A stretch of 49,062 nucleotides of DNA from a virus. How positions within the stretch are numbered: position 1 is the first letter of the stretch; each line of letters starts with the position of its first letter. The translations under genes and the position numbers were made by a program. Location: IMG/VR virus record IMGVR_UViG_3300044612_001598, positions 1 to 49,062 of that record; one strand, written 5' to 3'. Positions 2,367 through 44,528 of the stretch are shown here, in pieces. The notes below the pieces were generated by a model. That model made no database searches. It was not told where the DNA came from and was given only the letters and a program-made list of their open reading frames with translations.

Positions 2367-3095
2367 TTATACCACGCTGACATATATAGATTTGAGAATT
2401 ACTGATGCGTCATAATCGGTTCTAATTTGAGGAACTGCTCCGTTACCCCATATTTTTTGGTTTTCAATAAAAACCTGCTGGGTTACAGTTATTGGATAGG
2501 TATGTTGATATTTCATTGAGCCTATAAACTGAGCAATGTCTAGTTCGCTGTTTGGAGAATATGTTCGAATCCAGGCTTCTGTGTTACTGCTATATGTCGT
2601 TAACTCAAAACTGTAGGTTATAAATACTTGAGAGCCTTCTTTAAGTCCTTTAAAATTAAAGGCTCTAGCGTGGTCATTCCATAATGAAGCACAATCTTTA
2701 GGTAAATATCTTTCGTTTGATAATTCATCAGATAAAACAAAAACAGTTACCCATCCATCGTCTCCCTCAGATATTCCAAGTTTAAAAGGTTTTTCTATTT
2801 TATTGTGATAAGAAGCCCATCCTGCTTGCTGTCCTGAAGACGATAGAGAACTTAATCCTTCTCTTCCTTCTGGTCCTCGTGGACCTATTTTTCCTTCTGG
2901 TCCTTGAGGCCCTTCTTTCCCGTCTGCACCATCTCTACCATCTCTACCTGCAGGTCCCTGTGGCCCAGTTGGTCCAGGGACTGGAAGAAATGAAAGAACG
3001 TTATCTACAGAGGTAGATGCCTGACTTTGTTCTACTTGTGCAGCATAAGAAGATTTTTTTGCACCTGGAAAATCCATAGATTTAGAAACGGCCAT
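2367..3095 (-). CDS. Collagen-like tail-fibre protein
   Basis: 242 residues. Residues ~38-80 are an uninterrupted Gly-X-Y tract rich in GPxGPQGPxG and GRDGRDG units, the pattern of collagen-like triple-helical stalks in phage fibres. It is followed by a ~160-residue globular C-terminal domain with aromatic beta-rich sequence. The N-terminal ~35 residues may attach to the virion. GATAAT lies 6 bases before the ATG, implying a leaderless start. The proline-rich X/Y positions make it a candidate substrate for the window's prolyl-hydroxylase-type oxygenases (inference). Confidence 0.8.
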   Translation of the reverse strand: MAVSKSMDFPGAKKSSYAAQVEQSQASTSVDNVLSFLPVPGPTGPQGPAGRDGRDGADGKEGPQGPEGKIGPRGPEGREGLSSLSSSGQQAGWASYHNKIEKPFKLGISEGDDGWVTVFVLSDELSNERYLPKDCASLWNDHARAFNFKGLKEGSQVFITYSFELTTYSSNTEAWIRTYSPNSELDIAQFIGSMKYQHTYPITVTQQVFIENQKIWGNGAVPQIRTDYDASVILKSIYVSVV

Positions 3096-3115
3096 GGGTA
3101 CATTATCTCACGATA

Positions 3116-4204
3116 TTAAGTAAGTGACTCTATAGATGTAATGATTCCGTTGGTAACTGTAACAATTTTAGAGTCTGATGTTTGGAATGTTCCCGTTGCT
3201 CCCGTTGGCAAATCTCCAAGAGTTGCTACAACTTTGTCTGCATCAGAATAGCCAGATGTTCTTGCGCTATTAATTATTGCACCACTATATGTATTGATAT
3301 TTACTGAAGAAGGAACGGCATTTGAAGTAATGGTAACTTCAGGCGCTGCAATAGTTACTGCTCCAGAAGAAGCCTGTAGATATATATCTGCATCATTAAC
3401 CTCTAAAGCAAGATCATTATCACCTGAATTTATAAGTCCCAAGACTTTAAGGGCACCAAAATTAGTAGGTCCATACAAAGTTCCATCTTCAGCAAACACA
3501 TCAGTTCCTGGCTCACCTTTTGCTGCGAGTAAATTCCAAAATCCTGGAGAAGGAGTGTCTCCAACATTTCCGCCATTAGCACCAACACGATACCAAAGTT
3601 GTCCGTCATATGTTGCTATATCTCCAACGGCATATGATGCTCCGCCATTGTATTCTCCTGTGTAATTCCAAAGTGCATCTGCACCATTTATACCATCTGC
3701 ACCTTTAGGAATCCAAACCTCCCATTGTGCAGTGTTTCCAACTGGATCTCCAAGTTGTCCACTTGCTTTAGCAAGATAAAGTTGTCCGTCTGATCCTCTA
3801 ACTACTGCAATGTCTGGAACGTATCCGCTATTTGGATTGTAGTTTCCTAAATAGTAAATTCCAAAGTCTGCACCATTGGTTCCGTTAGTTCCATTGATAC
3901 CATTTGCACCTGCTTGGCCATCTGCACCCTTTGATGCAATTAAATCAAACTTTGCAGTATTTGTTGGAAGTGTTCCAGCAGTTGTTGCTGACTTTGTATA
4001 ATAAAGTTGTCCTTGGTAGGTTACTAAATCTCCAACTGCATAAGCAGCAGCAGGGTTGTATGCACCCTGATATGACCATAGAGCAGGTGTTCCTGGCAAA
4101 CCATTTTGACCTGCTGGTCCTTGCTGACCTTGTGGTCCTGGAGCACCTTCGTCTCCCTTGTCTCCAACTGCGCCTGGCATTGGAACAATTTTAATAACTG
4201 CCAT
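3116..4204 (-). CDS. Collagen-like receptor-binding protein with three CBM5/12-like modules
   Basis: 362 residues from the ATG at 4204 (TAATG overlap with the upstream stop). A short Gly-X-Y tract (~residues 15-38) precedes three related modules near residues 42-95, 112-165 and 178-235. Each has a W/Y-x-Y-xGxY...Y..GDxxxYxGQLYY core like chitin-binding CBM5/12 domains, joined by KGADGxxG collagen-like linkers. A beta-helical or trimerising C-terminal part (repeated VTI, NIN and TSD segments) follows. The modular build fits a carbohydrate-binding tail spike or fibre. Confidence 0.75.
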   Translation of the reverse strand: MAVIKIVPMPGAVGDKGDEGAPGPQGQQGPAGQNGLPGTPALWSYQGAYNPAAAYAVGDLVTYQGQLYYTKSATTAGTLPTNTAKFDLIASKGADGQAGANGINGTNGTNGADFGIYYLGNYNPNSGYVPDIAVVRGSDGQLYLAKASGQLGDPVGNTAQWEVWIPKGADGINGADALWNYTGEYNGGASYAVGDIATYDGQLWYRVGANGGNVGDTPSPGFWNLLAAKGEPGTDVFAEDGTLYGPTNFGALKVLGLINSGDNDLALEVNDADIYLQASSGAVTIAAPEVTITSNAVPSSVNINTYSGAIINSARTSGYSDADKVVATLGDLPTGATGTFQTSDSKIVTVTNGIITSIESLT

Positions 4205-4599
4205 TATAGTGTACCCCCTGGTGTGATGTCGCCTAATACATGTATGGTTCCAATTACAGGAGTCCAAACAGTATCTTCGATTAGTTCTGGAATAGTTACT
4301 TGAACATCAAATGGTAGTTCTGCAACTGTTCTTAAATATTTTAATCCCCAATTTTTTGTAACTGATGGATGAGCCTTTATATCAACAAATCCAGGACCAG
4401 GCTCACATTCAAGAGCGTCTAGAATATCTCCAGATTGATCATAAGCGGTTGCTCTAAAAATCCATCCATCTGTATCATAAAAATCTACTTCATTGGGCTG
4501 TAAAAACTCAACACGAAGGGAGCCAGTATCTCCTCTGACAACACGCCATTGGATGTTTACTGGATCAGCGCCGAAAATTTCTGGGGAGCAAGTAGACAT
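4204..4599 (-). CDS. LtfC-like baseplate/tail-fibre adaptor
   Basis: 131 residues. The WRVVRGDTGSLRVEF opening, a central GWxFRATAYD segment and the closing TPVIGTIHVLGDIT resemble the small beta-sandwich LtfC/p132-type proteins encoded beside phage fibres (recalled family, moderate confidence). It is first in the tail-fibre operon. TATAAT ends exactly 6 bases before the ATG, so its mRNA is probably leaderless, and downstream genes are translationally coupled. Confidence 0.6.
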   Translation of the reverse strand: MSTCSPEIFGADPVNIQWRVVRGDTGSLRVEFLQPNEVDFYDTDGWIFRATAYDQSGDILDALECEPGPGFVDIKAHPSVTKNWGLKYLRTVAELPFDVQVTIPELIEDTVWTPVIGTIHVLGDITPGGTL

Positions 4600-4622
4600 A
4601 ATGTGATTATACCATAAAAAAA

Positions 4623-4673
4623 TGACTAGTACTCAGGCTGGTGGGTATGAAAGACAAACCAGAGTACTAGTCA
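4623..4673. repeat. 12-bp perfect inverted repeat
   Basis: TGACTAGTACTC (4623-4634) and GAGTACTAGTCA (4662-4673) are perfect arms around a 27-base centre. It sits between the tail-fibre operon promoter and the end of the next minus-strand gene. No U-tract follows it on the minus strand, so a termination, operator or RNA-stability role cannot be separated from sequence alone. Confidence 0.7.
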
Positions 4674-4674
4674 A

Positions 4675-4874
4675 TATAAATTATATCATATCAGGACAAT
4701 ACGGACATGTATATAAAAAGTTATCAAATTGTTATTGTCTGTAATGTCCGTTTTATACTGGTTTGTCATATAGTGTCAGGATGTCGGATAGTGTATACTT
4801 AAAATATATAAGAAAAAAGAACTATCTTTAAGGTTTATATATAGAAGATATCTTATATATAGTATATAGGAAGT
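4675..4874. promoter_or_regulatory. AT-rich intergenic region with ATGTCCG box
   Basis: No gene seen. It holds the ATGTCCGTTTT box (near 4744) found also in the early-region control modules, a partly complementary CGGACAT near 4700, and a TATACTTAAAAT -10-like element near 4793 on the plus strand. What a plus-strand transcript here would express is unclear; the next gene is on the minus strand. Confidence 0.35.
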
Positions 4875-5141
4875 TTACTTGCTAAGTCTGTCAATATGGT
4901 CAAGTAAGATTTTATACATTTCGTCAAGTTTTTTCTCTTGTCTATCTCGTGACATTATAGAGTCTATTCTTTGTTCGTCTAAAGCAGTTTCTAATCTTGA
5001 GACTTGATCTTTTAAACTTGATCCAGAATTGGGTTTAAGTTCGCTGAGATAATGTTTTACCATCCACTTGATCGCAAGAGCGATTGATGATACAATTGTA
5101 AGTATAGCGACGATTAATGAGGCCCAGTCTTGAATTGTCAT
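4875..5141 (-). CDS. Membrane-anchored coiled-coil protein (possible holin-like)
   Basis: 88 residues from ATG at 5141 (MTIQDWASLIV). One hydrophobic segment spans about residues 8-27 and is followed by a charged, heptad-like helix to the C-terminus. This architecture is common in phage holin-like/XhlA-type and other small membrane proteins. It is upstream of the tail genes and divergent from the gene at 5174. Lysis function is only a guess; another holin candidate lies at 30521-30820. Confidence 0.55.
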   Translation of the reverse strand: MTIQDWASLIVAILTIVSSIALAIKWMVKHYLSELKPNSGSSLKDQVSRLETALDEQRIDSIMSRDRQEKKLDEMYKILLDHIDRLSK

Positions 5142-5173
5142 AACTAGATTATTATAAGGGGTATTTAACAAAA

Positions 5174-5944
5174 ATGAAAACAGACATACTCAAAACACTT
5201 GAGCATTCCAAGAATCTTATTATATCCCCCGACATGGATGGTTTTATGTCCGCAAAATTACTGGAGCGTTTTAACGGTTCGAAAATAGTAGGATCATATG
5301 ATAAAAATATTTTGTGTCTCGCCGACGGTATCAATCCAGAGGAATGTCTTTTTGTCGACTGTGATATGAATAGGCCAGGGTATGTGTCAATCGGAAATCA
5401 TATGAGACTCCTAGAAGATAACATAGCGCCTAACTCATTTAATCCGAATGTACACTATAAGGTCAACAAGTATCGAGAAAAGTTTCCGTTCGCAACTGCG
5501 TTTTTAATTTCGTTCGCAATAGAGGCTGATACATCCGATGAAGACAAAATACGCATGGCATTCGCTGACTCTACACTACGCAATATGGAGTTCTACAGCG
5601 AGAACATGCGAAACTGGTCTACAAGGATGAAGTCTGCAGAAGTATCCTATGTTATGGAAAACCTCGAATCCACAATAGAGTCAGATAATAAATTTAGAGA
5701 AGTATATGTTGATCAAGCATTTACAAGTAAAAGGTTTGGCAAGACAAGATATTTGGATAACCTTAATAAGGCCCTAGAAGCCGAACAGATGGCCTTTGAA
5801 CCAATAGTTAGTGGTATCAAGTACATGTCAGACAAAGTCGGCTTAAACACCGTCATAAGGTATAATAGAGATATAGTTTCATATGCTGAGATATTCGGAG
5901 GCGAGTTTTCAGTCACATATGATCAGGAGATAGAATGGAAATAA
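5174..5944 (+). CDS. Hypothetical protein, possibly a degenerate DHH-type phosphoesterase
   Basis: 256 residues. Near the N-terminus a SPDMDGFMSAKLL motif followed by LFVDCDM and SIGNHM resembles the DxDG...SA, D and DHH metal-binding spacing of the DHH/RecJ superfamily, but the third motif is altered. The rest is helical with no motif recognised. It is divergent from 4875-5141 and followed after one base by the gene at 5946. The family call is tentative. Confidence 0.45.
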   Translation: MKTDILKTLEHSKNLIISPDMDGFMSAKLLERFNGSKIVGSYDKNILCLADGINPEECLFVDCDMNRPGYVSIGNHMRLLEDNIAPNSFNPNVHYKVNKYREKFPFATAFLISFAIEADTSDEDKIRMAFADSTLRNMEFYSENMRNWSTRMKSAEVSYVMENLESTIESDNKFREVYVDQAFTSKRFGKTRYLDNLNKALEAEQMAFEPIVSGIKYMSDKVGLNTVIRYNRDIVSYAEIFGGEFSVTYDQEIEWK

Positions 5945-5945
5945 A

Positions 5946-6140
5946 ATGACAAGAGAAGAAGTTGTAACATTAATGTGCAATACCGTTGACGAGTTCAACA
6001 GATATAGTGCTGCACAGAATAACTTTTCAGCAGAACAGATTGAAGAGTTTATCCTAGCAGGACGTGAGCAAATGGAGTTTGTTAATGGTATGCTCTATGA
6101 CGTTTTGAGAGATCATGGAGTTATTGCAGAATGGAACTAA
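5946..6140 (+). CDS. Small hypothetical protein
   Basis: 64 residues, acidic and helical, starting one base after the preceding stop. Its end overlaps the next gene's start by 10 bases, so the three plus-strand genes 5174-6277 likely form one transcript. No family recognised. Confidence 0.6.
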   Translation: MTREEVVTLMCNTVDEFNRYSAAQNNFSAEQIEEFILAGREQMEFVNGMLYDVLRDHGVIAEWN

Positions 6141-6277
6141 AGCAATATTTGATGAATTGTGATTTAGAGGATCTTTCTGAGTCTACCCAGGAAAAATACG
6201 AACATATTGCAAATATGCGTAAATCAACTGAGGAGTATTGGCGTAACCGTATTACTGCTGAAAATCAATCAAACTAG
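6131..6277 (+). CDS. Small hypothetical protein
   Basis: 48 residues (starts MELKQYLMNCDLEDL), charged and helical. Overlaps the previous gene by 10 bases and converges on the minus-strand gene ending at 6274. Spacing and overlap are the main support. Confidence 0.45.
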   Translation: MELKQYLMNCDLEDLSESTQEKYEHIANMRKSTEEYWRNRITAENQSN

Positions 6278-6462
6278 TCTTTGCAAGAACAATTAGTGCA
6301 GCAGGTTTCTGAAAATAATTTTAGTGCCAAACCATCGTTTTCTGGTCTACCCATATCTTCCCAAAATCTTTCTCTACCCATAGCATCTGTTTCTCTTATA
6401 GGTGATGATTCGGTCTCAAGATCTATGTCCCAGGCGTTTTCGAAATTATCTAATATTCCCAT
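6274..6462 (-). CDS. Small Cys-tailed protein
   Basis: 62 residues from the ATG at 6462, which has TATAAT exactly 6 bases before it (leaderless-type start). The C-terminus carries a Cys cluster (CCTNCSCKD), suggesting metal or redox chemistry. The N-terminal part is acidic. Function unknown. Confidence 0.55.
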   Translation of the reverse strand: MGILDNFENAWDIDLETESSPIRETDAMGRERFWEDMGRPENDGLALKLFSETCCTNCSCKD

Positions 6463-6681
6463 GAATTCATTATACCGCAAAATCTGAAAAATTTTTAAAA
6501 TTCAAATACCTCAAAATCTGAATATTTTTACCAGATGTATGATGCGTGATTTAAAAAACAATAGGGCAAAAATATAGTGAGCACATACTCGGGCTTTTTT
6601 CTTGATGCTAACTAATTTAGTAGGCGGTGCCTAGTAACTTTTAATCACTGGCACCTACCTAATAAATATCACCACGCCATG
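6463..6681. other. Intergenic region with imperfect inverted repeat
   Basis: No gene seen. Contains AAAATCTGAA twice near 6478-6523, and an imperfect stem pairing the GGTGCC segment near 6625 with GGCACC near 6651, just downstream of the minus-strand gene ending at 6682. The stem could end or protect that transcript; there is no clear U-tract. Confidence 0.4.
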
Positions 6682-6972
6682 TTAACTAGTTTTACTTAGT
6701 ATAGGAACGACTTTGCGATCTACCCAAGCCTTCATTTTTTCATTTTCTTTTGCTTGTTTTAGGTCTATGTTAGTAATTCCAACATCTCTTAGAATTTTGC
6801 TAGTTTCTACTACAATAGTTTTAGCGAATGCAACACCTAATAGTTTTAATCCTATTGGTATAGCAACAACTGCGCCTATTGTTAGAACTAACATCATAAC
6901 AGCCATAAAGATAAGTGAGTATTGAACTACATTAGCAAACCATTCAAATGGTGCTGAAATAAAGTCAAACAT
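6682..6972 (-). CDS. Small integral membrane protein
   Basis: 96 residues. A strongly hydrophobic stretch (~residues 17-52) can form one or two membrane helices and is followed by a lysine-rich tail. The start is set by a strong AGGAGG Shine-Dalgarno 4 bases before the ATG. Unknown function; last of a coupled set of minus-strand small genes. Confidence 0.65.
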   Translation of the reverse strand: MFDFISAPFEWFANVVQYSLIFMAVMMLVLTIGAVVAIPIGLKLLGVAFAKTIVVETSKILRDVGITNIDLKQAKENEKMKAWVDRKVVPILSKTS

Positions 6973-6979
6973 TAGCCTC

Positions 6980-7132
6980 CTATATAACTTCTACATTAGT
7001 GATGTCTGTAACATGGTCAATTCTCCATGTGCCGTTGATAATTTCAATAACCTTTTCCCATGAGTGTACTTCATAGACAGGCTGTGAGGTCTTTCCATCT
7101 TTTCCAACTACTGTAAGTATAACGCTATTCAT
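6980..7132 (-). CDS. Small hypothetical protein
   Basis: 50 residues (MNSVILTVVGKDGKTSQ start), beta-rich. Its stop lies next to the Shine-Dalgarno of the following gene. Part of the minus-strand chain from 7548 to 6682. No family recognised. Confidence 0.55.
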   Translation of the reverse strand: MNSVILTVVGKDGKTSQPVYEVHSWEKVIEIINGTWRIDHVTDITNVEVI

Positions 7133-7136
7133 TTAT

Positions 7137-7241
7137 TTATCTCTTTTCTTTTGTGCATAAGCAGGGGTTGATTGTTATTTGTTTACCCTTTTGGGTAACG
7201 ATTGCTAGGGTGCTACATTGTGAGCATAGGTATAGGTGCAT
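7137..7241 (-). CDS. Very small zinc-ribbon-like protein
   Basis: 34 residues. CSQC near the N-terminus and CLC near the C-terminus form a minimal zinc-ribbon pattern. The start shares its A with the previous stop (TAATG), supporting translational coupling. Confidence 0.5.
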   Translation of the reverse strand: MHLYLCSQCSTLAIVTQKGKQITINPCLCTKEKR

Positions 7242-7333
7242 TAGAATTCACTATCCTTATCTAGTATAGTAGGGATAAGTACTAGTATAGTGCATAGCAC
7301 TGACAAGGCTAGGACAATAATAGGCAGGCTCAT
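7241..7333 (-). CDS. Very small membrane peptide
   Basis: 30 residues, nearly all one hydrophobic helix (MSLPIIVLALSVLCTILVLI), with a short charged tail. The start overlaps the upstream stop as TAATG. Too short to classify; coupling is the main support. Confidence 0.45.
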   Translation of the reverse strand: MSLPIIVLALSVLCTILVLIPTILDKDSEF

Positions 7334-7548
7334 TAGATACACTCCTCACAAGGGCATTGTGGGAATTGTCGTTCTTGCTTAATTTTATTAGCAAGACGAA
7401 TAACCTTAGCGTATGTAGTAACGCTTGCACCTCTAAAGTTAACAGGTTCGCCATTTGCTACCTTTTCAGCAGCAAGGGCAATTCGTTGATTTAGTGATAA
7501 GTGTCCATAGGTAGAGGACTCAATGTAATTAGAATCTAGTGTAGTCAT
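7333..7548 (-). CDS. Small hypothetical protein with C-terminal Cys cluster
   Basis: 71 residues, helical, ending in CPCEEC. A GAAAGGTGG Shine-Dalgarno precedes the ATG. First gene of the leftward small-gene chain and divergent from the early rightward genes; the palindromes around 7741-7907 may control both directions. Confidence 0.6.
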   Translation of the reverse strand: MTTLDSNYIESSTYGHLSLNQRIALAAEKVANGEPVNFRGASVTTYAKVIRLANKIKQERQFPQCPCEECI

Positions 7549-7740
7549 TTGTGACCACCTTTCGTTAGTAGTTAATAGGGGCTAAGTTTTATTTGCTTTA
7601 GATTTATTTGCTCTATTTCTAGAGGCTCACCCTAAAGGCTCAAACTTTTTTATTTAATTGTTATAGTAATAATACTAGCAGACATTTTCCGTACTGTCTA
7701 GTATACTCACTAGTAGTCTCACTATGTGGAGCGTGTACTA

Positions 7741-7907
7741 TGTGATTTAGGTCACTTATTCGCTAGGCTCATATAACAATTCGTTATCTTATTTGCTAGG
7801 CTCATAACCTTTTATCTCTATTTAATTTTTCTTATACTAGTATAATAACACATCTACCCCTAAAAGTCAAGCACTAATACGGCGTGTCGTGTGTGATTTA
7901 CCTCACA
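7741..7907. promoter_or_regulatory. Two CRP/GlxR-like palindromes in divergent control region
   Basis: TGTGA-TTTAGG-TCACT (7741-7756) and the perfect TGTGA-TTTACC-TCACA (7892-7907). The consensus TGTGA-N6-TCACA is that of CRP-family regulators, including actinobacterial GlxR/Crp. They flank GCTAGGCTCATA direct repeats at 7762-7773 and 7795-7806. Confidence 0.6.
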
Positions 7908-15954: not shown

Positions 15955-16028
15955 GGTTCCATAGATCAATTGGTTAGATCGCTACCCTGTCACGGTAGAG
16001 GCTACGGGTTCAAGTCCCGTTGGAATCG
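15955..16028 (+). tRNA. tRNA-Asp (GTC)
   Basis: 74 bases. Acceptor GGTTCCA pairs with TGGAATC (one G-T); anticodon stem CTACC/GGTAG with loop CTGTCAC gives anticodon GTC; T-arm GGGTTCAAGTCCC. Discriminator G fits Asp. CCA is not encoded. Confidence 0.93.
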
Positions 16029-16248
16029 CAAGCGTAAATGGGGCCCCGAGGGAATGTGATATAGGTCACATAATATTTCTAATAAAATAACTTTACGATA
16101 AAAGAATATTTTTCCTGGAATTTCTTTACGATAGGTTTGATTTTTTTCCCAAACCTTGCTACAATTAATATATAACCCAGTAACAGGAGATACCCATTTG
16201 TCAGTGCCCTCTGTTACACTTATAACATAACCCAAACAAAGGAAAGAT
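16029..16248 (+). promoter_or_regulatory. Control module for 16249
   Basis: GGGCCCCGAGGGA; perfect TGTGA-TATAGG-TCACA (16055-16070); TTTACGATA twice; TTGATT-N17-TACAAT near 16137-16165 with CAAACC/GGTTTG motifs like those at 19080-19760; then TTGTCAG (16198-16204), N10, TACACT (16215-16220). Two promoters seem to be stacked. Confidence 0.55.
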
Positions 16249-16491
16249 ATGACCCTAGAAACAGAAACAATGGAAGATCCAACAATGTACGCAGACTACT
16301 ATTCTTGCGACCTTGCTATCTCTATTACAAATATCAAGGCTAAGAATGTACATCACGCAGAAGCCGTTATGCAAACCTTCATAGATGAAATTGGCAAGAT
16401 AATGACTGATGAACTTAGTTGGGATGACGCTCAATGGGATATACAAGAAAATGTATTCCTACCTGAACTAGGTGAGTGGCACACAAAGTGA
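16249..16491 (+). CDS. Small hypothetical protein
   Basis: 80 residues, acidic, mixed fold. AAAGGAAAG ribosome site. Its stop overlaps a GTG start (GTGA). First of a chain of overlapping small genes to 16995. Confidence 0.55.
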   Translation: MTLETETMEDPTMYADYYSCDLAISITNIKAKNVHHAEAVMQTFIDEIGKIMTDELSWDDAQWDIQENVFLPELGEWHTK

Positions 16492-16634
16492 GAACCATTG
16501 ATGAATTAGTTAATGAGATATACGAAGACAACTACTCTCATTTAGAGTTTGATGAGAATATGGGTGGGGAAGATTGTGACTGCCATATTCATACTACCCT
16601 AAACACAATCGTAGAGTATTGGTGGGACAAGTAA
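16488..16634 (+). CDS. Small protein with CxCHxH motif
   Basis: 48 residues from a GTG that overlaps the previous TGA. DCDCHIH could bind metal. TAATG overlap with the next gene. Confidence 0.45.
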   Translation: MRTIDELVNEIYEDNYSHLEFDENMGGEDCDCHIHTTLNTIVEYWWDK

Positions 16635-16795
16635 TGCCATTAGTAGGATATGAAGAAGTAGATGCACTAGATATGATATTAGGAGTTCAGTCTGTTATGA
16701 TTACTGTTAATCCTGATGATGACCCTTGGCTTCACAATACCCTGTGGAAAACCAAAGACTTCCTTGAAGGACTAATGGCAGAGGGGTACTTCTAA
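16634..16795 (+). CDS. Small hypothetical protein
   Basis: 53 residues, acidic, Met- and Leu-rich (VDALDMILGVQSVMI). TAATG at both ends. No family recognised. Confidence 0.5.
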   Translation: MPLVGYEEVDALDMILGVQSVMITVNPDDDPWLHNTLWKTKDFLEGLMAEGYF

Positions 16796-16995
16796 TGTGG
16801 ACTAAGCACGACTATGTATGTACTAACTGTGACGCTCTTATTGAGGTTACTGCCCTGGAGATACCAAGGGTAGATCCTGACTGTATTTGTGCTAGAGGAA
16901 TGGTTATTGGTATTGGCTCATCCCCTGCGTATGAACCTGTGATGGAAGTCACACCCCGTGAAGTTGTAAAAATCAACACGAACCCGTATAATTAA
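16795..16995 (+). CDS. Small zinc-ribbon-like protein
   Basis: 66 residues. CTNC near residue 9 and DCIC near residue 29 suggest a zinc ribbon, followed by a proline-rich tail. TAATG start. Confidence 0.55.
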   Translation: MWTKHDYVCTNCDALIEVTALEIPRVDPDCICARGMVIGIGSSPAYEPVMEVTPREVVKINTNPYN

Positions 16996-16998
16996 TAT

Positions 16999-17154: not shown

Positions 17155-17156
17155 CT

Positions 17157-29774: not shown

Positions 29775-30479
29775 ATGGATCAACAAAGAATGCAAAACGC
29801 TGCTGAAGGATTTACTCAAGACCAGGAAGGCAATAGATACGCTTTTGAAAGCGTTGCGCCTGGAGTTCACCTATATAGGAATGTATGGCCAAACTCAATG
29901 GATACAATGAATAGACTTTTAGACAAAGATTTTTGGGAAGATAAAGATGGAATTAATGGCGCAAAGAAGTGGGTTCGTGAAGATTTTTTTGATGACTTAG
30001 AATATACAAGAGAAAATGGAAAACAATCAGATACCTGCTGGCTATGGGAACATGAAGAGGCAAACAATGCTTTTCGTGGAATAATTGACTCCTACTGTTT
30101 TCACTGGAATATTGATCCAAAAAGCAGAGAGTCTCTAAGAATTTCTAGGTTTTCTAATGGTGAATTCTTTGGTGCACATAGTGATGACTCATATGCAACG
30201 CCAAGAACAGTATCCCTAGTGTATTATCCAAACGATGATTACGAAGGTGGCGAATTAGAGTTTATTCATTTTGGAGTTACAATAAAGCCAAAGGCTGGAG
30301 ATCTTCTTGTTTTCCCATCTGGATACTCTTATGAACACAGAATCCATGAGATTAAAAGTGGAAACCCAAGATGGACAATTGTTTCATTTTTATTCTTTGG
30401 AGAAGATGATGAGTCTGCACTTAGAAGATCAAAACTAAAAGTGTTTCCATATAAACCAGAATTTAAAAAACTTTTTTAA
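29775..30479 (+). CDS. 2OG-Fe(II) oxygenase, prolyl 4-hydroxylase type (copy 1)
   Basis: 234 residues. GAHSDD gives the iron ligands His135 and Asp137; YEGGELEF and GDLLVFPSGYSYEHRIHEI supply the distal His191; Arg199 (GNPRW) fits the 2-oxoglutarate salt bridge. All catalytic positions are present. Hydroxylates protein or small-molecule C-H bonds; P4H types act on proline. ATG 29775 is used; a TTG lies 12 bases upstream near GGAAGG. Confidence 0.88.
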   Translation: MDQQRMQNAAEGFTQDQEGNRYAFESVAPGVHLYRNVWPNSMDTMNRLLDKDFWEDKDGINGAKKWVREDFFDDLEYTRENGKQSDTCWLWEHEEANNAFRGIIDSYCFHWNIDPKSRESLRISRFSNGEFFGAHSDDSYATPRTVSLVYYPNDDYEGGELEFIHFGVTIKPKAGDLLVFPSGYSYEHRIHEIKSGNPRWTIVSFLFFGEDDESALRRSKLKVFPYKPEFKKLF

Positions 30480-32624: not shown

Positions 32625-33062
32625 TTATACCAGAAAGTCGCTACAGATTGCAAATGGCTTTGTTTCAAAATCATCTTCGTTAAACTCCTCTAAATGAACA
32701 ATTATAGTATTACTTACTATTTCTTTTCCAGGATATGTCCATATATGCTTACTGCTTGTAAGAGTAAATGAGTCTTCTTGATGCCAAAAAAATCTTGTAT
32801 GTGAATAATCATTTATAAATTTTTCAAGAGACAGAAGGTCTTTGCAGTGAAACCATGCATGAGGATTGACCGCACCTATAAAATCTTCATCTATTTTATA
32901 CTTAGGATAGTCATGTCCAAGAAAGAATCCTTCACCATCTTGAAACCATATATCTATTTCAACCTCAAAGCCATCTTCTATAGCCTTAGAAATATACTCT
33001 GGGCTATTCTCTAACTCTGGTTTTGGTCCTCGTGTATTTCCACGATGTGCTATTTTAATCAT
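32625..33062 (-). CDS. Glycerophosphodiester phosphodiesterase-like protein
   Basis: 145 residues. IAHRGN (His6-Arg7), EVEIDIW (Glu35-Asp37) and LGHDY (His50-Asp51) match the GDPD catalytic set (HRG, ExD, HD). Shorter than full GDPD enzymes, so activity or substrate may differ. Overlaps the HAD-nucleotidyltransferase gene, consistent with a role in glycerophosphate or polyol-phosphate polymers such as teichoic acids. Confidence 0.7.
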   Translation of the reverse strand: MIKIAHRGNTRGPKPELENSPEYISKAIEDGFEVEIDIWFQDGEGFFLGHDYPKYKIDEDFIGAVNPHAWFHCKDLLSLEKFINDYSHTRFFWHQEDSFTLTSSKHIWTYPGKEIVSNTIIVHLEEFNEDDFETKPFAICSDFLV

Positions 33063-34419
33063 TATCTCTCCTATAGTTGTAGTTGTTTAAATCTTCTGGG
33101 GTTCCTATTCCCCACATTTTTTTAATATTGCTTGCAAACACCCTCTTATTGTCCGCAATCGCCTCATTAAAAACAGGGCAAACATAAAATTCATTGTTTG
33201 TTCTAATATCTTTATCTATCATCTGCTCAGCATACTTAACAAAGTCTGAACCATGTTTCCAATAATAAATCCCAACTGTTGCTATGTTGCTAATTGGTTT
33301 TTTCTCTGCAACCTCTGTAACTAGACCATCTGAGTTAATTTTTGCATAAGACCATTTTGGGTGTGTAGACTCAAATGTAGCAATTCCTCCATCTGCATTT
33401 TTTGTCATTAGTTCATAGATAAACTTCCTGCTATTCCATTCAACTATCTGATCGGAATTAGCCAAGATCAGTGGGCTCTCATTATCTATATATTCTTTTG
33501 CTAATAGGCAAGTAACTGCTGCTCCTTCTGTTATCCCATCTACCTGCACAATATTGCAGTCTGGAGTTATAAGGTTAAGTAGGTAAGACAGATTATATTT
33601 CTCATAATGTTCTTTTTGAACTATGTAGGTGTATGTTGCATTTACCCCTATAGACTCCACTACAGCCTGAATCATGGGCTTTCCGTCTACTTCCACTAAC
33701 GGCTTAGGGAATACATATCCAGCATCCTTAAAACGGCTTCCAAGGCCTGCCATTGGTATTAAAACATTAAGTCCTTGATCTTTCCATGTACTTTTTCCAG
33801 ATTGCAAAAGACTAATAGCCTTATTAATCTTATCCTCTGCAAGGTCTGCTCTATTTTTAATTTCAATCAGGGTAGCCTTGCTATCTCTTGCAGCAAGTTT
33901 ACCAACAAGGCTATCCTCAAAAATAACAGTCTCATCTGCAATCACACCAAAGTAAGACATAGCCTTCCAGTACATTTCTGGGTGAGGCTTTGGATGCTTT
34001 ACGTCTTCATTACTTACAACATAGTCTATTAAGTGTACGATGCCTAGCCCCTCTAAGCAATCAAAGACAGTATTACGAATACTATTACTTGCTACCGCTA
34101 TATTAATCTTATTGTCTTTAATTATTGTAAGTAGTCTAATTAGTTCTTTGTCTTCTGGAATATTTGAAAACATATTACTTGTTATTTCTTGCTTAAGTCT
34201 CCAGACACTATCAAAACTTTCTTCTGGAAGATCCTTATATTTATTCAAAAGACTTAGTTTAGCCTTTGTTGTAAGCCCTTCATATATGTTTTCTTGTTCC
34301 TCTTTAGTAATTATATAGTCAGGACTTAGTGCTCTCAAAGCATCGTTAAGTGCATCAAAGTGAATAGTCTTGCTATCAACAAGAACTCCATCTAAGTCAA
34401 AAACTATTAGGCTAGTCAT
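33055..34419 (-). CDS. HAD phosphatase - sugar nucleotidyltransferase fusion
   Basis: 454 residues in two domains. Residues 1-~205: HAD hydrolase of the beta-phosphoglucomutase type (LIVFDLDGVLVDS, ASNSI motif II, HPKPHPEMYW, IFEDSLVG). Residues ~215-454: NTP_transferase fold (LIPMAGLGSRFKDAG signature, PKPLVEVDGKPM). Such fusions could make a free sugar or polyol and an activated NDP-sugar. Lies between GT61-like and GDPD-like genes. Confidence 0.85.
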   Translation of the reverse strand: MTSLIVFDLDGVLVDSKTIHFDALNDALRALSPDYIITKEEQENIYEGLTTKAKLSLLNKYKDLPEESFDSVWRLKQEITSNMFSNIPEDKELIRLLTIIKDNKINIAVASNSIRNTVFDCLEGLGIVHLIDYVVSNEDVKHPKPHPEMYWKAMSYFGVIADETVIFEDSLVGKLAARDSKATLIEIKNRADLAEDKINKAISLLQSGKSTWKDQGLNVLIPMAGLGSRFKDAGYVFPKPLVEVDGKPMIQAVVESIGVNATYTYIVQKEHYEKYNLSYLLNLITPDCNIVQVDGITEGAAVTCLLAKEYIDNESPLILANSDQIVEWNSRKFIYELMTKNADGGIATFESTHPKWSYAKINSDGLVTEVAEKKPISNIATVGIYYWKHGSDFVKYAEQMIDKDIRTNNEFYVCPVFNEAIADNKRVFASNIKKMWGIGTPEDLNNYNYRRDND

Positions 34420-35374
34420 TTAAAATCCCCATTATGTATTTATTTAATTTTATTTTATTTATAATTTCTGTGCTATTTCTAAGACTTGGAATCATTATAA
34501 AGATATGAGCCATATTAAATAAAAGACCTGGGTATAGGGAGTGTAGAGTTTCTTTTCCATTTGAAACCATTGGCACCTCTAACTCAATAATAGTTTGATT
34601 TTTTTTCATTAGCAATCCATTTACAAGCCCAGCACTAGTTGGTGAAACTAATGTCTTTACAGAATCAAAATACGCTATCTGATCTTCAAAAGATTCAAAA
34701 TCTTCTGGACAAATTATTTCAAAACCCATAGAGTAAAAATAATCAGACAGTTTCTGTTCAGAATCTACCCTGTCGTCATTTAAAAAATTAAAGTTTTCTG
34801 GATCTCTACCAGCAAAGAGCCCCTTGTTTTTTCTTTTTCTTGTTTTTTCTCTACTCAAAAAAACTTTTCTATATGGATCTACAGATTCTTTAGGACGATA
34901 TTTTTCTATAAGTTCTGATACAGCATTAACTCCTTCTGAAAAAGTGCTAACGGATGTTACATATGACACATTATTTATTTTTAATGCTGTTCTTTTATCA
35001 AGATGAATTAATTCGTAGTTTATGCCTTCGTCAACTAAAGCATCAAGGAAAAACTTATAAAAAGAATTTAGACTTTCTGATCCATCTTTTTCAAAACAGT
35101 TGATAATAAATTTTGTTGAAGGATATTTTTTGTTATATACAAGTATGTGTGATAAAGTATCTGATACTGCATGATAGTAGGATGTTGGCAAGTTTATAAA
35201 AAATTTATTTTCACTGGAGCATACGTCTAACTTATAGTAAAAAAAATCATTTTCTTCTTTTGATAGTTCTTTTTTGCAATGTATGTCATTAAAGTCTTCT
35301 CCAGAAGTCAGGAGGTATACTGTGTCTGGTTCATATTTTAGGATATTCCTACTATCGTTAAAGAATACTAGCAT
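34412..35374 (-). CDS. GT61 (DUF563)-like glycosyltransferase, copy 1
   Basis: 320 residues. FLSREKTRKRKNKG and a C-terminal GFEIICPEDFESFEDQIAYF, LVSPTSAGLVN, IIELEVP set match GT61/DUF563 glycosyltransferases (families of glycan xylosyl- and other transferases). Tandem with a homologous copy; overlaps it by 7 bases. Acceptor unknown. Confidence 0.75.
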   Translation of the reverse strand: MLVFFNDSRNILKYEPDTVYLLTSGEDFNDIHCKKELSKEENDFFYYKLDVCSSENKFFINLPTSYYHAVSDTLSHILVYNKKYPSTKFIINCFEKDGSESLNSFYKFFLDALVDEGINYELIHLDKRTALKINNVSYVTSVSTFSEGVNAVSELIEKYRPKESVDPYRKVFLSREKTRKRKNKGLFAGRDPENFNFLNDDRVDSEQKLSDYFYSMGFEIICPEDFESFEDQIAYFDSVKTLVSPTSAGLVNGLLMKKNQTIIELEVPMVSNGKETLHSLYPGLLFNMAHIFIMIPSLRNSTEIINKIKLNKYIMGILND

Positions 35375-36321
35375 GTCTCCTCCATTATAAGTCCTCTTAT
35401 TATACTGTTTGAGTCCATTATCTTTAAAACATCTTCTGACGATCTCATTGACGGAATAGAAAAATAAACCAGACTCTTAGCCCAGGCAATTGGTGCATAG
35501 TGTTGGTGTATAGTACTCTCTCCCTGAACCATCATAGGTATGGTTAGTTCAACGACCTGGCATCCATCCTTCATAAAGCACATGTTGATTAGCCCTGCTC
35601 CCGTAGGAGATATCAATGTCTTAACTGAACTAAAGTATTTTATCTGATCCTCAAAAGAGTCAAAGTCTTCTGGATAAACAATCTCAAATCCATTAGATTT
35701 TAAGTATGATTCAAGTGCTAACTCATCCGACATTCTCGCAGAATCATCTTTTATTTTTAATGTCTCTGGGTCCCTATCTCCAGTTATCCAAGATCCAGTT
35801 TTATACTTTGTCTTTCCTCTACTACAGTATACCTTTCTAAATGGACTACCTTCAAAATGATAAGGACTTGAAACACTATACAGGTTGGTGACAAAATTAT
35901 CTGTTAACTTTGGGGATGAATAATAATAAAAATCTTTTATTAAAAACCTTTTATCCATAACTTTATATTCTAAAAGATCTACAAATGTATGCTTTACTTT
36001 ATTCATTTTTAAAACTTTAATAAAAAACAGAACATGTTCTTGTAGCATGTTCTCAGGTGGTGCACCGCTTAGGATAAAAAAATGAGTCTCTTTATTCTTG
36101 TTAAACTCTTGAAGTATAATCCCTAATGATTGCATAAATGTATGGTAGTATCTATCAGATAGTATAACTACACATTTACTCGCTGCATTGTCAAAAACAT
36201 AATAGTCTTTAAAGTCTTCTATTTTTTCTATATTTGGTGGAGAATAATAGGTGCCTGAAAACTCTAAGGAATAAACTCCCTCAAAGATTTCTGGCTTTGT
36301 TTCTTGTCCTAGAACTAACAC
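35368..36321 (-). CDS. GT61 (DUF563)-like glycosyltransferase, copy 2
   Basis: 317 residues from GTG at 36321. Same motifs as copy 1 (YCSRGKTKYK, GFEIVYPEDFDSFEDQIKYF, LISPTGAGLIN, VVELTIPM). The conserved C-terminal cores contrast with divergent N-termini, so an old tandem duplication is likely. Confidence 0.75.
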   Translation of the reverse strand: MLVLGQETKPEIFEGVYSLEFSGTYYSPPNIEKIEDFKDYYVFDNAASKCVVILSDRYYHTFMQSLGIILQEFNKNKETHFFILSGAPPENMLQEHVLFFIKVLKMNKVKHTFVDLLEYKVMDKRFLIKDFYYYSSPKLTDNFVTNLYSVSSPYHFEGSPFRKVYCSRGKTKYKTGSWITGDRDPETLKIKDDSARMSDELALESYLKSNGFEIVYPEDFDSFEDQIKYFSSVKTLISPTGAGLINMCFMKDGCQVVELTIPMMVQGESTIHQHYAPIAWAKSLVYFSIPSMRSSEDVLKIMDSNSIIRGLIMEETC

Positions 36322-36609
36322 TTATTGAGACTCCATTGTAAGATATTGCCATGTACTAGCCCAATCAGATTTACTTTTATGTCGTGAGAACTCCTTAGAC
36401 ATTTGTCCATTTTCTAAGTATACTCCACCCCAAACACCCCACTCTTTTTGAGAAACGCCAACAGCAAAACACATTTTTGCAACAGGACAGCCAGAGCATA
36501 ATTTATCTATTGCTGGCCTAAGTAACTCATCTTCTTCATATTTATCAAAAAATAAATTTGTATCGTAATCCAAACATACAGCATCATCTTTCCATTTATG
36601 CTTTGGCAT
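36322..36609 (-). CDS. WhiB-family transcription regulator
   Basis: 95 residues. Four Cys (C12, C38, C41, C47) in CxxC spacing bind the 4Fe-4S cluster, and GVWGGVYLENG (58-68) is the WhiB tryptophan/glycine turn. Specific to actinobacteria and their phages; phage WhiB proteins act on host SigA. It may regulate the phage promoters or the host. Stop abuts the GT61 start. Confidence 0.93.
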   Translation of the reverse strand: MPKHKWKDDAVCLDYDTNLFFDKYEEDELLRPAIDKLCSGCPVAKMCFAVGVSQKEWGVWGGVYLENGQMSKEFSRHKSKSDWASTWQYLTMESQ

Positions 36610-40857: not shown

Positions 40858-42291
40858 TTACCTACAGATTGTAAAGTTATATTCTTTTTCCCACTTAATA
40901 ATATCAATTTCATCATTAAGTAGTGGCTGCCCCTTAATATTAAGACTTGTATTTAATAGGACTGGAACACCAGTTTCAAGATAAAACTTATTAATTGCTC
41001 TCCATAGACCACGATGCTGGTTCTTATTCACAGTCTGAACTCTTGATGTACCATCTGCATGAACCACAGAAGGTATCTTTTCAGGCTGTAGGCACTTGAC
41101 CGTATACTGCATGTAAGGGCTTGTAAAGTCCATATCAAACCATTTAGAGGCACACTCCTCCATAACCACTGGGGCAAATGGTCTAAACAACTCTCTCTGT
41201 TTAATTAAATTAACCTTGTCTTTTATTAGTGGATCTCTAGGATCTGCAAGGATGCTTCTGTTTCCTAATGCCCTTGGTCCGTATTCGGCTCTTCCTGTTG
41301 CTACTGCTACGATTCCATCTTTTAATATACCGTCCACAATTTGCTGAACAGGATACTCTCCTCCAAGATCATAACCAAGATATGGAGTCTTCCAATCAAG
41401 GTGCTTTCCGTGCAGGGCTGCTGCAGCGCCCAAAGAACTACCAGCATCTCCAGGGTTAGGCATGATCCAAATCATATCAAAAATATTCCATAGTAAAGTA
41501 TTTGCAGAAGAGTTAAGAGCACAACCACCCATGAATACCAAATTATTTTTTCCAGTCATTCTTTTTGCCATACGCATAAACTGATTTAGCCTTTGCTCGT
41601 AAACCATCTGAACTGCTGCAGCGATATCAAATCTGTCTTGCTCAGTAATTACCATTCCCCAGTCATTGATTCCTTTATGAAAGTTATACTTTTGCTGATC
41701 ATACTCTGGAAAATACTCATCTACTTCTTTGTAATATCTTTTCCAGTCTCCGTATGCAGCCATACCCATCATAATATATTCTTCTTGGTTTGGCATAAGT
41801 CCAATCAGTTCTGTAAATGCAGAGTAGAATAATCCAAAACTAATGGGATAGTTCTGCTTATACTTAAGTTTAATCTTGTCGCCTTCACCAACCCAAATTG
41901 TTGATGTATTAAACTCACCAATTGCATCTAGCACTACAATACATGCATCATCAAATGCGCTTGTATAATAACCTGCTGCTGCGTGAGAGTAATGATGACC
42001 AAAGTTTTTTCTTGGTAAGTCTCCAAGTTCTGTAGACTCAAACCATGGCCTGTCTCCACCAAAGCCTCCACGAGTCTTTACTCTAAGTTTCTTAAGTAAA
42101 GGCTTTTCGTAATATGCTATTTGATCTGGATACCCATATTGCAGTGCATCTTTTATTAGTTCTTTATTCGTAAACCAGTCATTTTTTTGTTTGCTGTATC
42201 TTTCTGCATGCCCAGCAAAAAGAATTTCTCCATCTTTTATTAAAGATACTGAAGCATCATGAGTGGTTTCGTTTACCCCTAAGATAATCAT
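40858..42291 (-). CDS. Carbamoyltransferase (NodU/CmcH family)
   Basis: 477 residues. GVNETTHDAS, FGHHYSHAAAGYY (His99, His100, His103), VVLDAIGE and MGGCALNSSAN match the O-carbamoyltransferase N domain, with the C domain (YGPRALGNRSIL...LFRPFAPVV) at the end. Uses carbamoyl phosphate to carbamoylate hydroxyls, for example on sugars. Known in Nod factor and antibiotic pathways; phage forms are thought to modify glycans or nucleotides. ATGA overlap with an oxygenase. Confidence 0.9.
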   Translation of the reverse strand: MIILGVNETTHDASVSLIKDGEILFAGHAERYSKQKNDWFTNKELIKDALQYGYPDQIAYYEKPLLKKLRVKTRGGFGGDRPWFESTELGDLPRKNFGHHYSHAAAGYYTSAFDDACIVVLDAIGEFNTSTIWVGEGDKIKLKYKQNYPISFGLFYSAFTELIGLMPNQEEYIMMGMAAYGDWKRYYKEVDEYFPEYDQQKYNFHKGINDWGMVITEQDRFDIAAAVQMVYEQRLNQFMRMAKRMTGKNNLVFMGGCALNSSANTLLWNIFDMIWIMPNPGDAGSSLGAAAALHGKHLDWKTPYLGYDLGGEYPVQQIVDGILKDGIVAVATGRAEYGPRALGNRSILADPRDPLIKDKVNLIKQRELFRPFAPVVMEECASKWFDMDFTSPYMQYTVKCLQPEKIPSVVHADGTSRVQTVNKNQHRGLWRAINKFYLETGVPVLLNTSLNIKGQPLLNDEIDIIKWEKEYNFTICR

Positions 42292-42956
42292 TCTGCTCCA
42301 GTTGAATCTCTTTTTTCGTCAAGAGGAACGTTGTGGTACCAGTTTGGCAGTGCATACCTTGGGCCACGTGTGACTGGATACACTTCGTGAACGTACAAGA
42401 AGTTTGAAGGAAAAAATAATACGCTTCCTGCTTCTGGCTTAAACTTTAATCCAGACTGCCTGAACTCAATTTCTCCACCCTCATAGTCATCATTTAAGTA
42501 TAAAAGAACAGACAAGACTCTTGTGCTAATGCCTTGGTCTTGGTGTGCTGGCAGATGACCAGTCTTGTCGTACTTAAGCAGGTGCATAGTTTTTTCTCTA
42601 GACTTTATATTTTTTTCAGCAAATGGATAAAGTTCAGTTGAATAGTGACTTAGGGTTCTATCAAGTGCACCAAATAGTTCGTTAGATATAAACGTTTGTT
42701 CTTTTAGATATATATCTGATTTTGAAATATCTTGCGCCTGTGGTATAAACTTTTGCATATTAAAAGTAATCTTGTTTTCGCCTTCTCCGTAAGTCCATGG
42801 AATCCATGGCTTTACTGATGTCATAAAAGGTGCTGGCTTGTCTTTTTGATATCTCAAATCAAGTTCTTCAATCTTTTTAATCAAACCATATGGATCATTT
42901 ACTATATTTTTATAATAAACCATTCCAAGATCTAAGACTTCAAAATCATTCGTCAT
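42288..42956 (-). CDS. 2OG-Fe(II) oxygenase, prolyl 4-hydroxylase type (copy 2)
   Basis: 222 residues. HLPAHQDQG (His138, Asp140), YEGGEIEF, VLFFPSNFLYVHEV (His190) and RGPRYALP (Arg200). Iron and 2OG ligands are all present. Coupled to the carbamoyltransferase downstream and copy 3 upstream. Target inferred as protein proline or glycan. Confidence 0.88.
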   Translation of the reverse strand: MTNDFEVLDLGMVYYKNIVNDPYGLIKKIEELDLRYQKDKPAPFMTSVKPWIPWTYGEGENKITFNMQKFIPQAQDISKSDIYLKEQTFISNELFGALDRTLSHYSTELYPFAEKNIKSREKTMHLLKYDKTGHLPAHQDQGISTRVLSVLLYLNDDYEGGEIEFRQSGLKFKPEAGSVLFFPSNFLYVHEVYPVTRGPRYALPNWYHNVPLDEKRDSTGAE

Positions 42957-43638
42957 TTAACGGATATTCCTTAGCCTTCCACTTTGGGACTACCCCTGGA
43001 TTTAGGAAATCTGGATCAGCATGGTTTGGAAGGCTTGTGTGCATGTATAGCGCTGTATGCCTGTTACCAGATAGGACCTTAGTTATTCCATGAATATACT
43101 CTGTTCCAGCACTAGGGAAGAATACTGCAGAATATCTTCTTGGCTCATACACATAATTTTGATTTGGGAAATAAATTCTTCCACCAGTAAACTCTAGATC
43201 TGGACTGATTGTTTGTCCTTCTTCTTCTTCTTGTGGATTTAAGTTACCATTTAAGTAGATAATTGTGCTCCACTCAATCCATGGCTCTGGTCCCTGTGCG
43301 TCAATATGCAGATCACCCTTTGTACCTTCTGTCCACCAAGAACCAAAAGCCTTAAATACATAGATGTCATTATAGAAAGCATTTTGCTCCTTATGAACCT
43401 CATTAGACTTATCTCCATACTTTTTTAAAATATCCATTACAGTTTTGTTGTATGGGAAAGAGGTTCCTCCATATCTTTTTTTATAATATTCTGGATATGG
43501 GTTTGTTGAAGATGGATTCTTTTGTTCATTAATTAAGGTCTGTGCATCTTCTGGCGTTATAAAATTCTTTATTACGTGGATTCTGTGTCCACCTTTTAGG
43601 TCTGCCCTGCGTTCTGCAGGCATGTTTGAGTCTGTCAT
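42946..43638 (-). CDS. 2OG-Fe(II) oxygenase (copy 3)
   Basis: 230 residues. GDLHIDAQG (His111, Asp113), GGRIYFP, EYIHGITKV (His183) and GNRHTAL (Arg193) complete the 2OG-oxygenase set. Divergent from copies 1 and 2, so probably a different substrate. AAAGGAGAAAAT ribosome site, TATAAT upstream. Confidence 0.85.
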   Translation of the reverse strand: MTDSNMPAERRADLKGGHRIHVIKNFITPEDAQTLINEQKNPSSTNPYPEYYKKRYGGTSFPYNKTVMDILKKYGDKSNEVHKEQNAFYNDIYVFKAFGSWWTEGTKGDLHIDAQGPEPWIEWSTIIYLNGNLNPQEEEEGQTISPDLEFTGGRIYFPNQNYVYEPRRYSAVFFPSAGTEYIHGITKVLSGNRHTALYMHTSLPNHADPDFLNPGVVPKWKAKEYPLNDE

Positions 43639-43664
43639 ATTTTCTCCTTTATATAATTATACCA

Positions 43665-44528
43665 TTAATGGATTGCTTTTGTATTGCCTAGATATCTTCT
43701 TGCATCTACCTTGTTAAAGGAAAGTGCTTGTGGATCATACTCGACATCATTTGTATGAAAGGGTAAATCATTTAGGTGCTGAAACACATTATTATGAAAA
43801 ATATTAAAGTCCTCTACGCTTCTTTCTAGACCATTAATATTTTCAAAAGAATTAAAACCATTTTTTAAAAGACTTATTGCTTCATTGTAATTATGATTCA
43901 AAGAAAATGGAACGTATATCTGACCGATAAGATTTTCTGAAACCTTTTTGTAGTAGTTGGATGGTGTGCAATATATGTCAATGCCTTTTGTAAAAATCTT
44001 AACAGACAAGGACTCCTCTTCTCCATTATACTTTAGGTATGTTGGATATTTAACTTCTGATAAAAAAGATGTTAGACCAAATATAAAATCTCTATCTATA
44101 TACTGCGTAATTGAAAAACTATCAGTATATTTATTTTCTTTACTTAAAAAGAAAAGGTTTTCCAAACCTAAAACAGTTTTTCCAGATCCAGAAATAACAC
44201 AATTGTTTTCTTCTACAAGGCTTACCAGATCATCGTCCCAATTTTTTGGAACCATGACTGAATCTCCTAGAATTAAAGAATATTTAGATAGGTTTGTTCT
44301 TATAAAAGAATTTTTATGATGGCAGGGGCTTGATATAAAATCCCAGAATATATGGAAATAACTACAGTTAGGACTAGAAAAGGTATCTCTTCGGTTTAGT
44401 GGGTGTTGATCTGAGATTATAACTTTTATTTTTCTTTTACCACTAGAATTTTTAAATACATTATCAACAACATCTTTAAGGTTCTTGCCTTTGTAGGAAT
44501 AAATTAAAACTAATATCTCATTCATCAT
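43665..44528 (-). CDS. GT60-like GlcNAc-transferase-type protein
   Basis: 287 residues. ILVLIYSYKGKNLKDVV opens like a GT-A fold; FWDFISSPCHHKNSFIRTNL then LILGDSVMVPKNWDDDL resembles PF11397, the Skp1-type GlcNAc transferase that glycosylates hydroxyproline. The canonical DxH metal site is only partly recognisable. Located beside three 2OG oxygenases, which supports but does not prove hydroxyproline glycosylation. Confidence 0.6.
   Translation of the reverse strand: MMNEILVLIYSYKGKNLKDVVDNVFKNSSGKRKIKVIISDQHPLNRRDTFSSPNCSYFHIFWDFISSPCHHKNSFIRTNLSKYSLILGDSVMVPKNWDDDLVSLVEENNCVISGSGKTVLGLENLFFLSKENKYTDSFSITQYIDRDFIFGLTSFLSEVKYPTYLKYNGEEESLSVKIFTKGIDIYCTPSNYYKKVSENLIGQIYVPFSLNHNYNEAISLLKNGFNSFENINGLERSVEDFNIFHNNVFQHLNDLPFHTNDVEYDPQALSFNKVDARRYLGNTKAIH

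Follow-up and report, generated by a model that had tools for sequence, protein, structure and literature searches.

The IMG/VR record IMGVR_UViG_3300044612_001598, a linear viral sequence of 49,062 bases analysed over its whole length (the window), carries on its minus strand a cassette of genes (40858-46665) that includes a GT60-like glycosyltransferase and two 2-oxoglutarate (2OG)-Fe(II) oxygenases. On balance, we favour the reading that this cassette belongs to a set of modules with which the phages of this family modify their own fibres, the substrates being fibres with Thr-Pro and (S/T)PFGF-type repeats rather than collagen-like proteins. Self-modification is supported because the gene order of the cassette is conserved, the predicted fold of the glycosyltransferase is that of polypeptide glycosyltransferases, the oxygenases resemble prolyl hydroxylases, and genes for such enzymes come straight after those for repeat fibres, with enzyme and repeat type matched. 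The gene families, their order, their adjacency to fibres and the covariation between repeat and enzyme are direct observations. An initial annotation of the window had proposed that the phage hydroxylates and glycosylates its own collagen-like fibres; gene order, folds, fibre adjacency and covariation speak for fibre modification, but collagen is not supported as its substrate.

The cassette reads in the order g45982 (45982-46665), DUF6065 protein b (45288-46034; phrog_7084, 4e-42), DUF6065 protein a (44518-45291; phrog_7084, 2e-30), the GT60-like enzyme (43665-44528), OX3 (42946-43638), OX2 (42288-42956) and, usually, a NodU/Nol-like carbamoyltransferase that overlaps OX2 (40858-42291; PF16861, 4e-52; PF02543, 5e-34). 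All lie on the minus strand. This order is kept, with minor swaps and as far as the contigs reach, in 31 of 31 relatives of the glycosyltransferase among viral contigs, and it holds even where the glycosyltransferases share only 32-34% identity. The first gene, g45982, for which Pfam and PHROG searches gave no match, adjoins the DUF6065 genes in these relatives wherever the contig reaches, and DUF6065 protein b is likewise conserved in the cassette. The carbamoyltransferase adjoins the cassette in most relatives and occupies a separate locus in two (L031/G004 and G009). Three of the four enzymes named in the initial annotation (42288, 42946 and 43665) thus form a single cassette, the oxygenase at 29763 lying elsewhere. 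Fibres and 2OG oxygenases together in one phage are ordinary; the part that is not chance is the conserved cassette and its link to repeat fibres.

The three 2OG oxygenases with intact ligands that had been annotated in the window are indeed present, although the first starts at 29763 rather than 29775 and the one at 42946 (OX3) gave no match in a Pfam search. All three have the HxD...H triad and distal Arg of the superfamily and match its double-stranded beta-helix, on the basis of Pfam for OX1 and OX2 and, for OX3, of invariant residues in 25 members together with a profile match to prolyl 3-hydroxylase 1 (P3H1) and prolyl 4-hydroxylase (P4H). OX2 is of the prolyl-hydroxylase/PKHD type (PF13640, 2e-17), and a phmmer search against the PDB returned PiuC, the P4H 5hv0, P3H1 and LH3; it is found in the cassette of the GT60-like relatives wherever the contig reaches, with occasional changes in order. 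OX3 is divergent. Its family keeps H111-x-D113, H183 and R193 invariant in 25 of 25 members, and the best PDB matches of its profile are P3H1 (8e-7) and the Bacillus anthracis P4H (2e-4). By sequence similarity, OX2 and OX3 are therefore closest to prolyl-hydroxylase-type enzymes. OX1 (29763-30479; PF13640, 1.5e-13) is encoded on the plus strand, opposite to the cassette, has its own locus in relatives and finds only weak PDB matches, to WelO5. As a side observation, phrog_2297 and phrog_274, labelled DNA endonuclease and endonuclease V, match 2OG oxygenases here, and these labels look wrong.

The glycosyltransferase at 43665 was annotated as a GT60-like N-acetylglucosamine (GlcNAc) transferase. 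The gene and a local family match stand (PF11397, 34.9 bits against a cut-off of 21, over only 48 residues), but a full-length GT60 match is lacking, with about 50 of the 352 profile positions covered, and the fold is nearest to an N-acetylgalactosamine (GalNAc) transferase. The AlphaFold model (pLDDT 89.3) finds polypeptide GalNAc-T2 as its best Foldseek match (E 4e-11, TMq 0.64), which places the protein among GT60/GT27-like GT-A folds through its similarity to polypeptide GalNAc-transferases. These enzymes glycosylate Ser and Thr in proteins. Judged by its modelled fold, the window enzyme would work like a GT60 enzyme, a likeness that we do not extend to family membership. A protein substrate is plausible because this polypeptide GalNAc-transferase fold is combined with oxygenases closest to the prolyl-hydroxylase type. 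In a related phage, a GT60 with a long family match (L081:6680-7597; PF11397, 4e-34) lies shortly after a Thr-Pro fibre. No member of the GT60-like family was found in the bacterial and archaeal genomes searched, and neither GT60 nor OX3 in the named phage records searched.

The repeat fibres themselves are encoded at and beyond the left end of the window. Positions 1-7818 are 100% identical to positions 7818-1 of contig L205 (IMGVR 3300042542_002102), an overlap of 7,818 bases at the contig end, so that L205 extends the window phage leftward past window position 1. The Thr-Pro-Val repeat fibre (2-1123, minus strand; PHROG minor tail protein, 1e-13) is represented in the window by its first 374 residues, the reading frame being open at the window end; on L205 the full protein is 1,013 residues long and contains 58 TP dipeptides, and the genes after it encode a PF13640 oxygenase (1e-16) and a cupin-like protein. 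Upstream of it, in a conserved order on the same strand, are the Gly-X-Y protein COL1, an InlB-repeat-like protein (1727-2383; PF09479, 1.2e-6) and g1143 (1143-1742). In relatives, this collagen/InlB/Thr-Pro cluster is commonly followed by an oxygenase, a GT61 or a GT60-like gene, and in other phages by genes for a GDP-sugar epimerase or a fucosyltransferase-like (O-FucT-like) protein. The second fibre on L205 (17665-19260) has FN3 domains and ends in a Hint-like domain at its C-terminus; its (S/T)PFGF-type repeats contain nine (S/T)PF units. Downstream lie OXR, RNR, two more oxygenases and the portal, protease and capsid genes.

Hint/intein-like C-termini occur on three repeat fibres (L205:17665-19260, L205:6696-9737 and L156:6157-7032); the L156 fibre matches Hom_end_hint at 3e-6, below the cut-off, and the Hint domain is degenerate in the window phage. 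The sequences of these domains beside the repeats suggest autoprocessing or its relic.

OXR is a His-rich protein of 232 residues encoded after the (S/T)PFGF fibre, at L205:19316-20014, with invariant H143, H145, H193 and R204. None was found in the bacterial and archaeal genomes or the named phage records searched, and OXR is apparently a new, phage-only family. In two relatives (L031/G004 and G009) the full cassette, comprising DUF6065, g45982, OXR, the GT60-like enzyme, OX3 and OX2, directly follows the PFGF fibre, and in nine others (L235, L238, L239, L240, L250, L251, L257, L276 and L282) most of it does.

The type of repeat and the type of enzyme covary. A survey anchored on this second fibre covered 99 loci that have it, in 56 distinct arrangements, many of the loci being near-copies of one another. 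Where the repeats are of the (S/T)PF type, OXR follows in 70 of 74 loci, and two of the four exceptions are contig ends. OXR is absent from all 11 loci with Ala-Phe-Gly repeats, which have DUF6065 instead where the contig continues, and from all nine with Pro-Pro-Phe or Phe-Ser-Pro-Pro repeats, where OX1/OX2-type oxygenases are present. A survey anchored on OXR agrees, with a Phe-rich repeat fibre no more than two genes upstream in 78 of 80 loci. To assess independence, the neighbouring gene, which encodes 1,235 residues, was used for a tree, and this yielded six independent SPF/AFG pairs; the presence of OXR agrees with the repeat type in an average of 5.6 of them and is opposed to it in none (sign test, about 0.03). 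The link between Pro-Pro repeats and OX1/OX2 is represented on this tree by one independent pair only. A plausible though still tentative extension is that repeats and matching hydroxylating or glycosylating enzymes form modules that are swapped as a unit and diversify the virion surface by post-translational modification, with OXR dedicated to (S/T)PFGF-type repeats.

Several observations weigh against fibre modification. In the window phage the cassette lies about 40 kb from the fibres, a distance that the initial annotation had remarked upon. OXR resembles 2OG enzymes by its conserved His/Arg pattern only, and a PDB profile search, a Pfam scan of all members and an hhalign comparison with OX3 gave no match to such enzymes. 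Some OXR neighbours (L293 and L355) have few Ser/Thr-Pro repeats or repeats with no Pro. The glycosyltransferase has no clear DxD/DxH metal motif: the Asp before the WD motif (D89) is kept in at least 90% of the family, but no His or Asp is conserved behind it (DSV, DNI, DNV). The predicted fold of DUF6065, which is nucleotide-enzyme-like, has no obvious fit with protein modification. Adjoining repeat and enzyme genes may also covary through hitchhiking or joint inheritance, and the repeat class changes six times on the DUF6065 tree against 11 times on the tree of the fibre's N-terminal part (the two row sets differ); this is compatible with an exchange of modules, functional or not.

Could the link, then, be genetic only? 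Variable modification and auxiliary-metabolism genes would gather in fibre hotspots and hitchhike there, the oxygenases altering host metabolism, for instance through the use of 2-oxoglutarate. Repeat and enzymes do behave as a single exchanged unit, and the 2OG oxygenases of cyanophages are usually explained by host metabolism, an explanation stated as untested (PMC9602691). However, the at least nine different arrangements found after the fibre draw on the same few enzyme families, enzyme identity matches repeat chemistry over six independent changes, and, against a baseline of 22% of genes followed by any such enzyme within three genes, the 2OG oxygenases at fibre sites are no random filling. 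We consider such hitchhiking unlikely.

As to the collagen-like proteins, two Gly-X-Y tail proteins had been annotated in the window, both on the minus strand. COL1 (2367-3095) reaches the Pfam Collagen cut-off (PF01391, 30.7 bits, residues 40-81, 14 triplets); COL2 (3116-4204), which carries a CBM_5_12-like segment (2e-7) and matches a PHROG tail fibre (7e-19), has 10 perfect triplets but stays below it (22.6 bits against 27.2). If these fibres were the substrate, Pro or Lys in the triplets would be hydroxylated and then glycosylated, as in animal collagen or mimivirus. OX2 and OX3 do resemble collagen prolyl and lysyl hydroxylases, and the genes for the collagen-like proteins and the Thr-Pro fibre stand together in an operon-like cluster that commonly leads into an oxygenase and/or glycosyltransferase. 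Collagen P4H hydroxylates Pro at the Y position (Xaa-Pro-Gly). The window proteins hardly offer this substrate: COL1 has seven Pro at X and none at Y (0/14), COL2 has Pro at Y in three of 10 triplets, and over COL1-size proteins as a whole the count is 56 of 731. A strict dependence between collagen and cassette, examined in both directions, was rejected, each occurring without the other in near-complete genomes. G004 (the same as L031, 115 kb) carries the cassette but lacks any Gly-X-Y protein, its syntenic fibre region being intact; in G017, G018, G020 and G022 (112-119 kb), Gly-X-Y proteins are present without an orthologue of the GT60-like enzyme or OX3, G017 showing only a weak partial glycosyltransferase match. 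G003 was not counted as collagen-negative, the collagen locus being expected in the part that it lacks. Since cassette and collagen are separable and COL1 lacks Pro at Y, the Gly-X-Y fibres are not supported as the substrate; the covariation, moreover, is with other repeats, and we regard a collagen substrate as quite unlikely. Collagen-like proteins in the tail-fibre island of freshwater actinophages had already been noted (PMC10202952).

The cassette might instead remodel host surface glycans by carbamoylation, glycosylation and sulfation as a protection against superinfection, the oxygenases acting on small molecules or on lipid or sugar precursors. The window encodes a suitable repertoire: the carbamoyltransferase, two GT61-family glycosyltransferases (34412-36321, minus strand; PF04577, 6e-15 and 2e-16), a HAD phosphatase fused to a sugar-1-phosphate nucleotidyltransferase (33055-34419, minus strand; PF13419, 1e-26; PF00483, 6e-12) and sulfotransferase-like genes. 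In addition, a role in preventing superinfection has been proposed for the glycosyltransferases of related actinophages from freshwater (PMC10202952). For the GT61 and sulfotransferase-like genes and the carbamoyltransferase, such remodelling of the host surface is a possible role. As an account of the whole cassette it seems rather unlikely, since it leaves unexplained why the families stand directly after repeat fibres and vary with the type of repeat, and why the glycosyltransferase has a polypeptide-glycosyltransferase fold. GT61 genes, too, are found directly after the Thr-Pro fibre in relatives. Two adjoining sulfotransferase-like genes occupy 28433-29870, the one at 29151 with a Pfam match and the one at 28433 judged by its P-loop-like start only; in relatives such as L236 and L252, sulfotransferase-like genes come directly after the PFGF fibre.

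DNA hypermodification, in which an oxygenase would make 5-hydroxymethylcytosine (5hmC) and the glycosyltransferase or carbamoyltransferase would decorate it, is very improbable. Carbamoylation of 5hmC by a phage enzyme has a precedent (PMC8670742), and OX2 matches Tet_JBP weakly. The predicted model of DUF6065 protein a shows a weak dUTPase/dCTP-deaminase-like fold (Foldseek 4e-4 against dUTPase); DUF6065 relatives occur in haloarchaeal tailed viruses and myoviruses (HF2, HSTV-2), the HSTV-2 copy adjoining thymidylate synthase, and no publication on the family was found in the literature library searched. However, Tet_JBP (PF12851) is always below its cut-off, and C5-methyltransferase (PF00145) and thymidylate synthase/dCMP hydroxymethylase (PF00303) are absent from eight relatives including one complete genome. 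The carbamoyltransferases of modified contigs co-occur with the thymidylate synthase that is absent here (PMC8670742). The hypothesis was largely rejected on the ground that the first enzyme, producing 5-methylcytosine or 5hmC, was not found in those eight relatives.

For fibre self-modification we infer the following scheme, in its chemistry, target residue and sequence of steps as well as in the part played by DUF6065 and the carbamoyltransferase and in the benefit to the phage. The cassette would be one of several fibre-modification modules in the phage family. OX2 and OX3, along with other oxygenases elsewhere in the genome, would hydroxylate residues in low-complexity fibre repeats, and the GT60-like enzyme would glycosylate the hydroxyl so formed or an adjacent Ser/Thr. 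The likely substrates would be the Thr-Pro-Val fibre that begins at window positions 2-1123 and the (Ser/Thr)-Pro-Phe-Gly-Phe fibre on L205, not the short Gly-X-Y stretches. Exchange of repeat type and enzyme set together between phages may allow the virion to vary its receptor-binding or antigenic chemistry.

The window is a fragment of a longer genome, the nearest complete relative of its phage being 118 kb long. The phage belongs to a family of freshwater phages of about 115 kb, with a host that is probably actinobacterial; a WhiB-like regulator (36322-36609) points to such a host. Seven tRNA genes (15955-24395 and 46720-46793) are present, five of them clustered at 24013-24395. An RsmI-like 16S rRNA (cytidine-1402) 2'-O-methyltransferase is phage-borne here (25872-26642; TIGR00096, 9e-23, below the cut-off). 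Three SGNH/GDSL-like genes (20925-21812, 26703-27743 and 47813-48616) share a GCS.T.G motif and have further copies in relatives.

Dictyostelium Skp1 is reportedly modified by the prolyl hydroxylase PhyA and the GT60 GlcNAc-transferase Gnt1. The window phage likewise pairs a P4H-type oxygenase with an enzyme whose Pfam match is to the GT60 family (43665), and in L081 the Thr-Pro fibre is followed by a full GT60; however, Skp1 is a single cytosolic substrate with one hydroxyproline, whereas the window enzyme has no more than a local match to PF11397 and a putative substrate. In plant extensins and arabinogalactan proteins, Pro in Ser-Pro or Pro-Pro repeats is hydroxylated and then glycosylated, which works alike with no homologous substrate and serves as an analogy only. 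A viral precedent is found in mimivirus, with the L230 collagen lysyl hydroxylase/glucosyltransferase and a mimiviral galactosylhydroxylysyl glucosyltransferase (PMC9546862). There, too, the virus encodes a repeat-protein substrate together with enzymes for 2OG-dependent hydroxylation and glycosylation, but mimivirus is a eukaryotic giant virus that modifies lysine in true collagen, while here a bacteriophage would use separate enzymes on what are most likely non-collagen Ser/Thr-Pro repeats. Glycosylation of the Maravista mycobacteriophage virion was inferred from two glycosyltransferase genes (PMC11256854). This is again an actinobacteriophage with glycosyltransferases thought to decorate virion proteins, although the capsid is the proposed target and neither hydroxylase pairing nor repeat-matched enzyme exchange is described there. 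Many PF13640-type oxygenases per genome are also seen in cyanophages; S-SCSM1 has 24 2OG-Fe(II) oxygenase genes, whose function was stated as not investigated and for which no link to fibres was drawn (PMC9602691).

Phage genomes are rich in 2OG oxygenases of unknown purpose, which are usually read as host-metabolism genes. The covariation of repeats and enzymes offers a concrete candidate substrate for many of them, namely the phage's own fibres. If this is true, a post-translational chemistry that the protein sequence alone does not reveal may underlie adsorption and recognition as well as host range in these abundant freshwater phages, which would possess a prokaryotic counterpart of hydroxyproline and mucin-type glycosylation outside eukaryotes and giant viruses.

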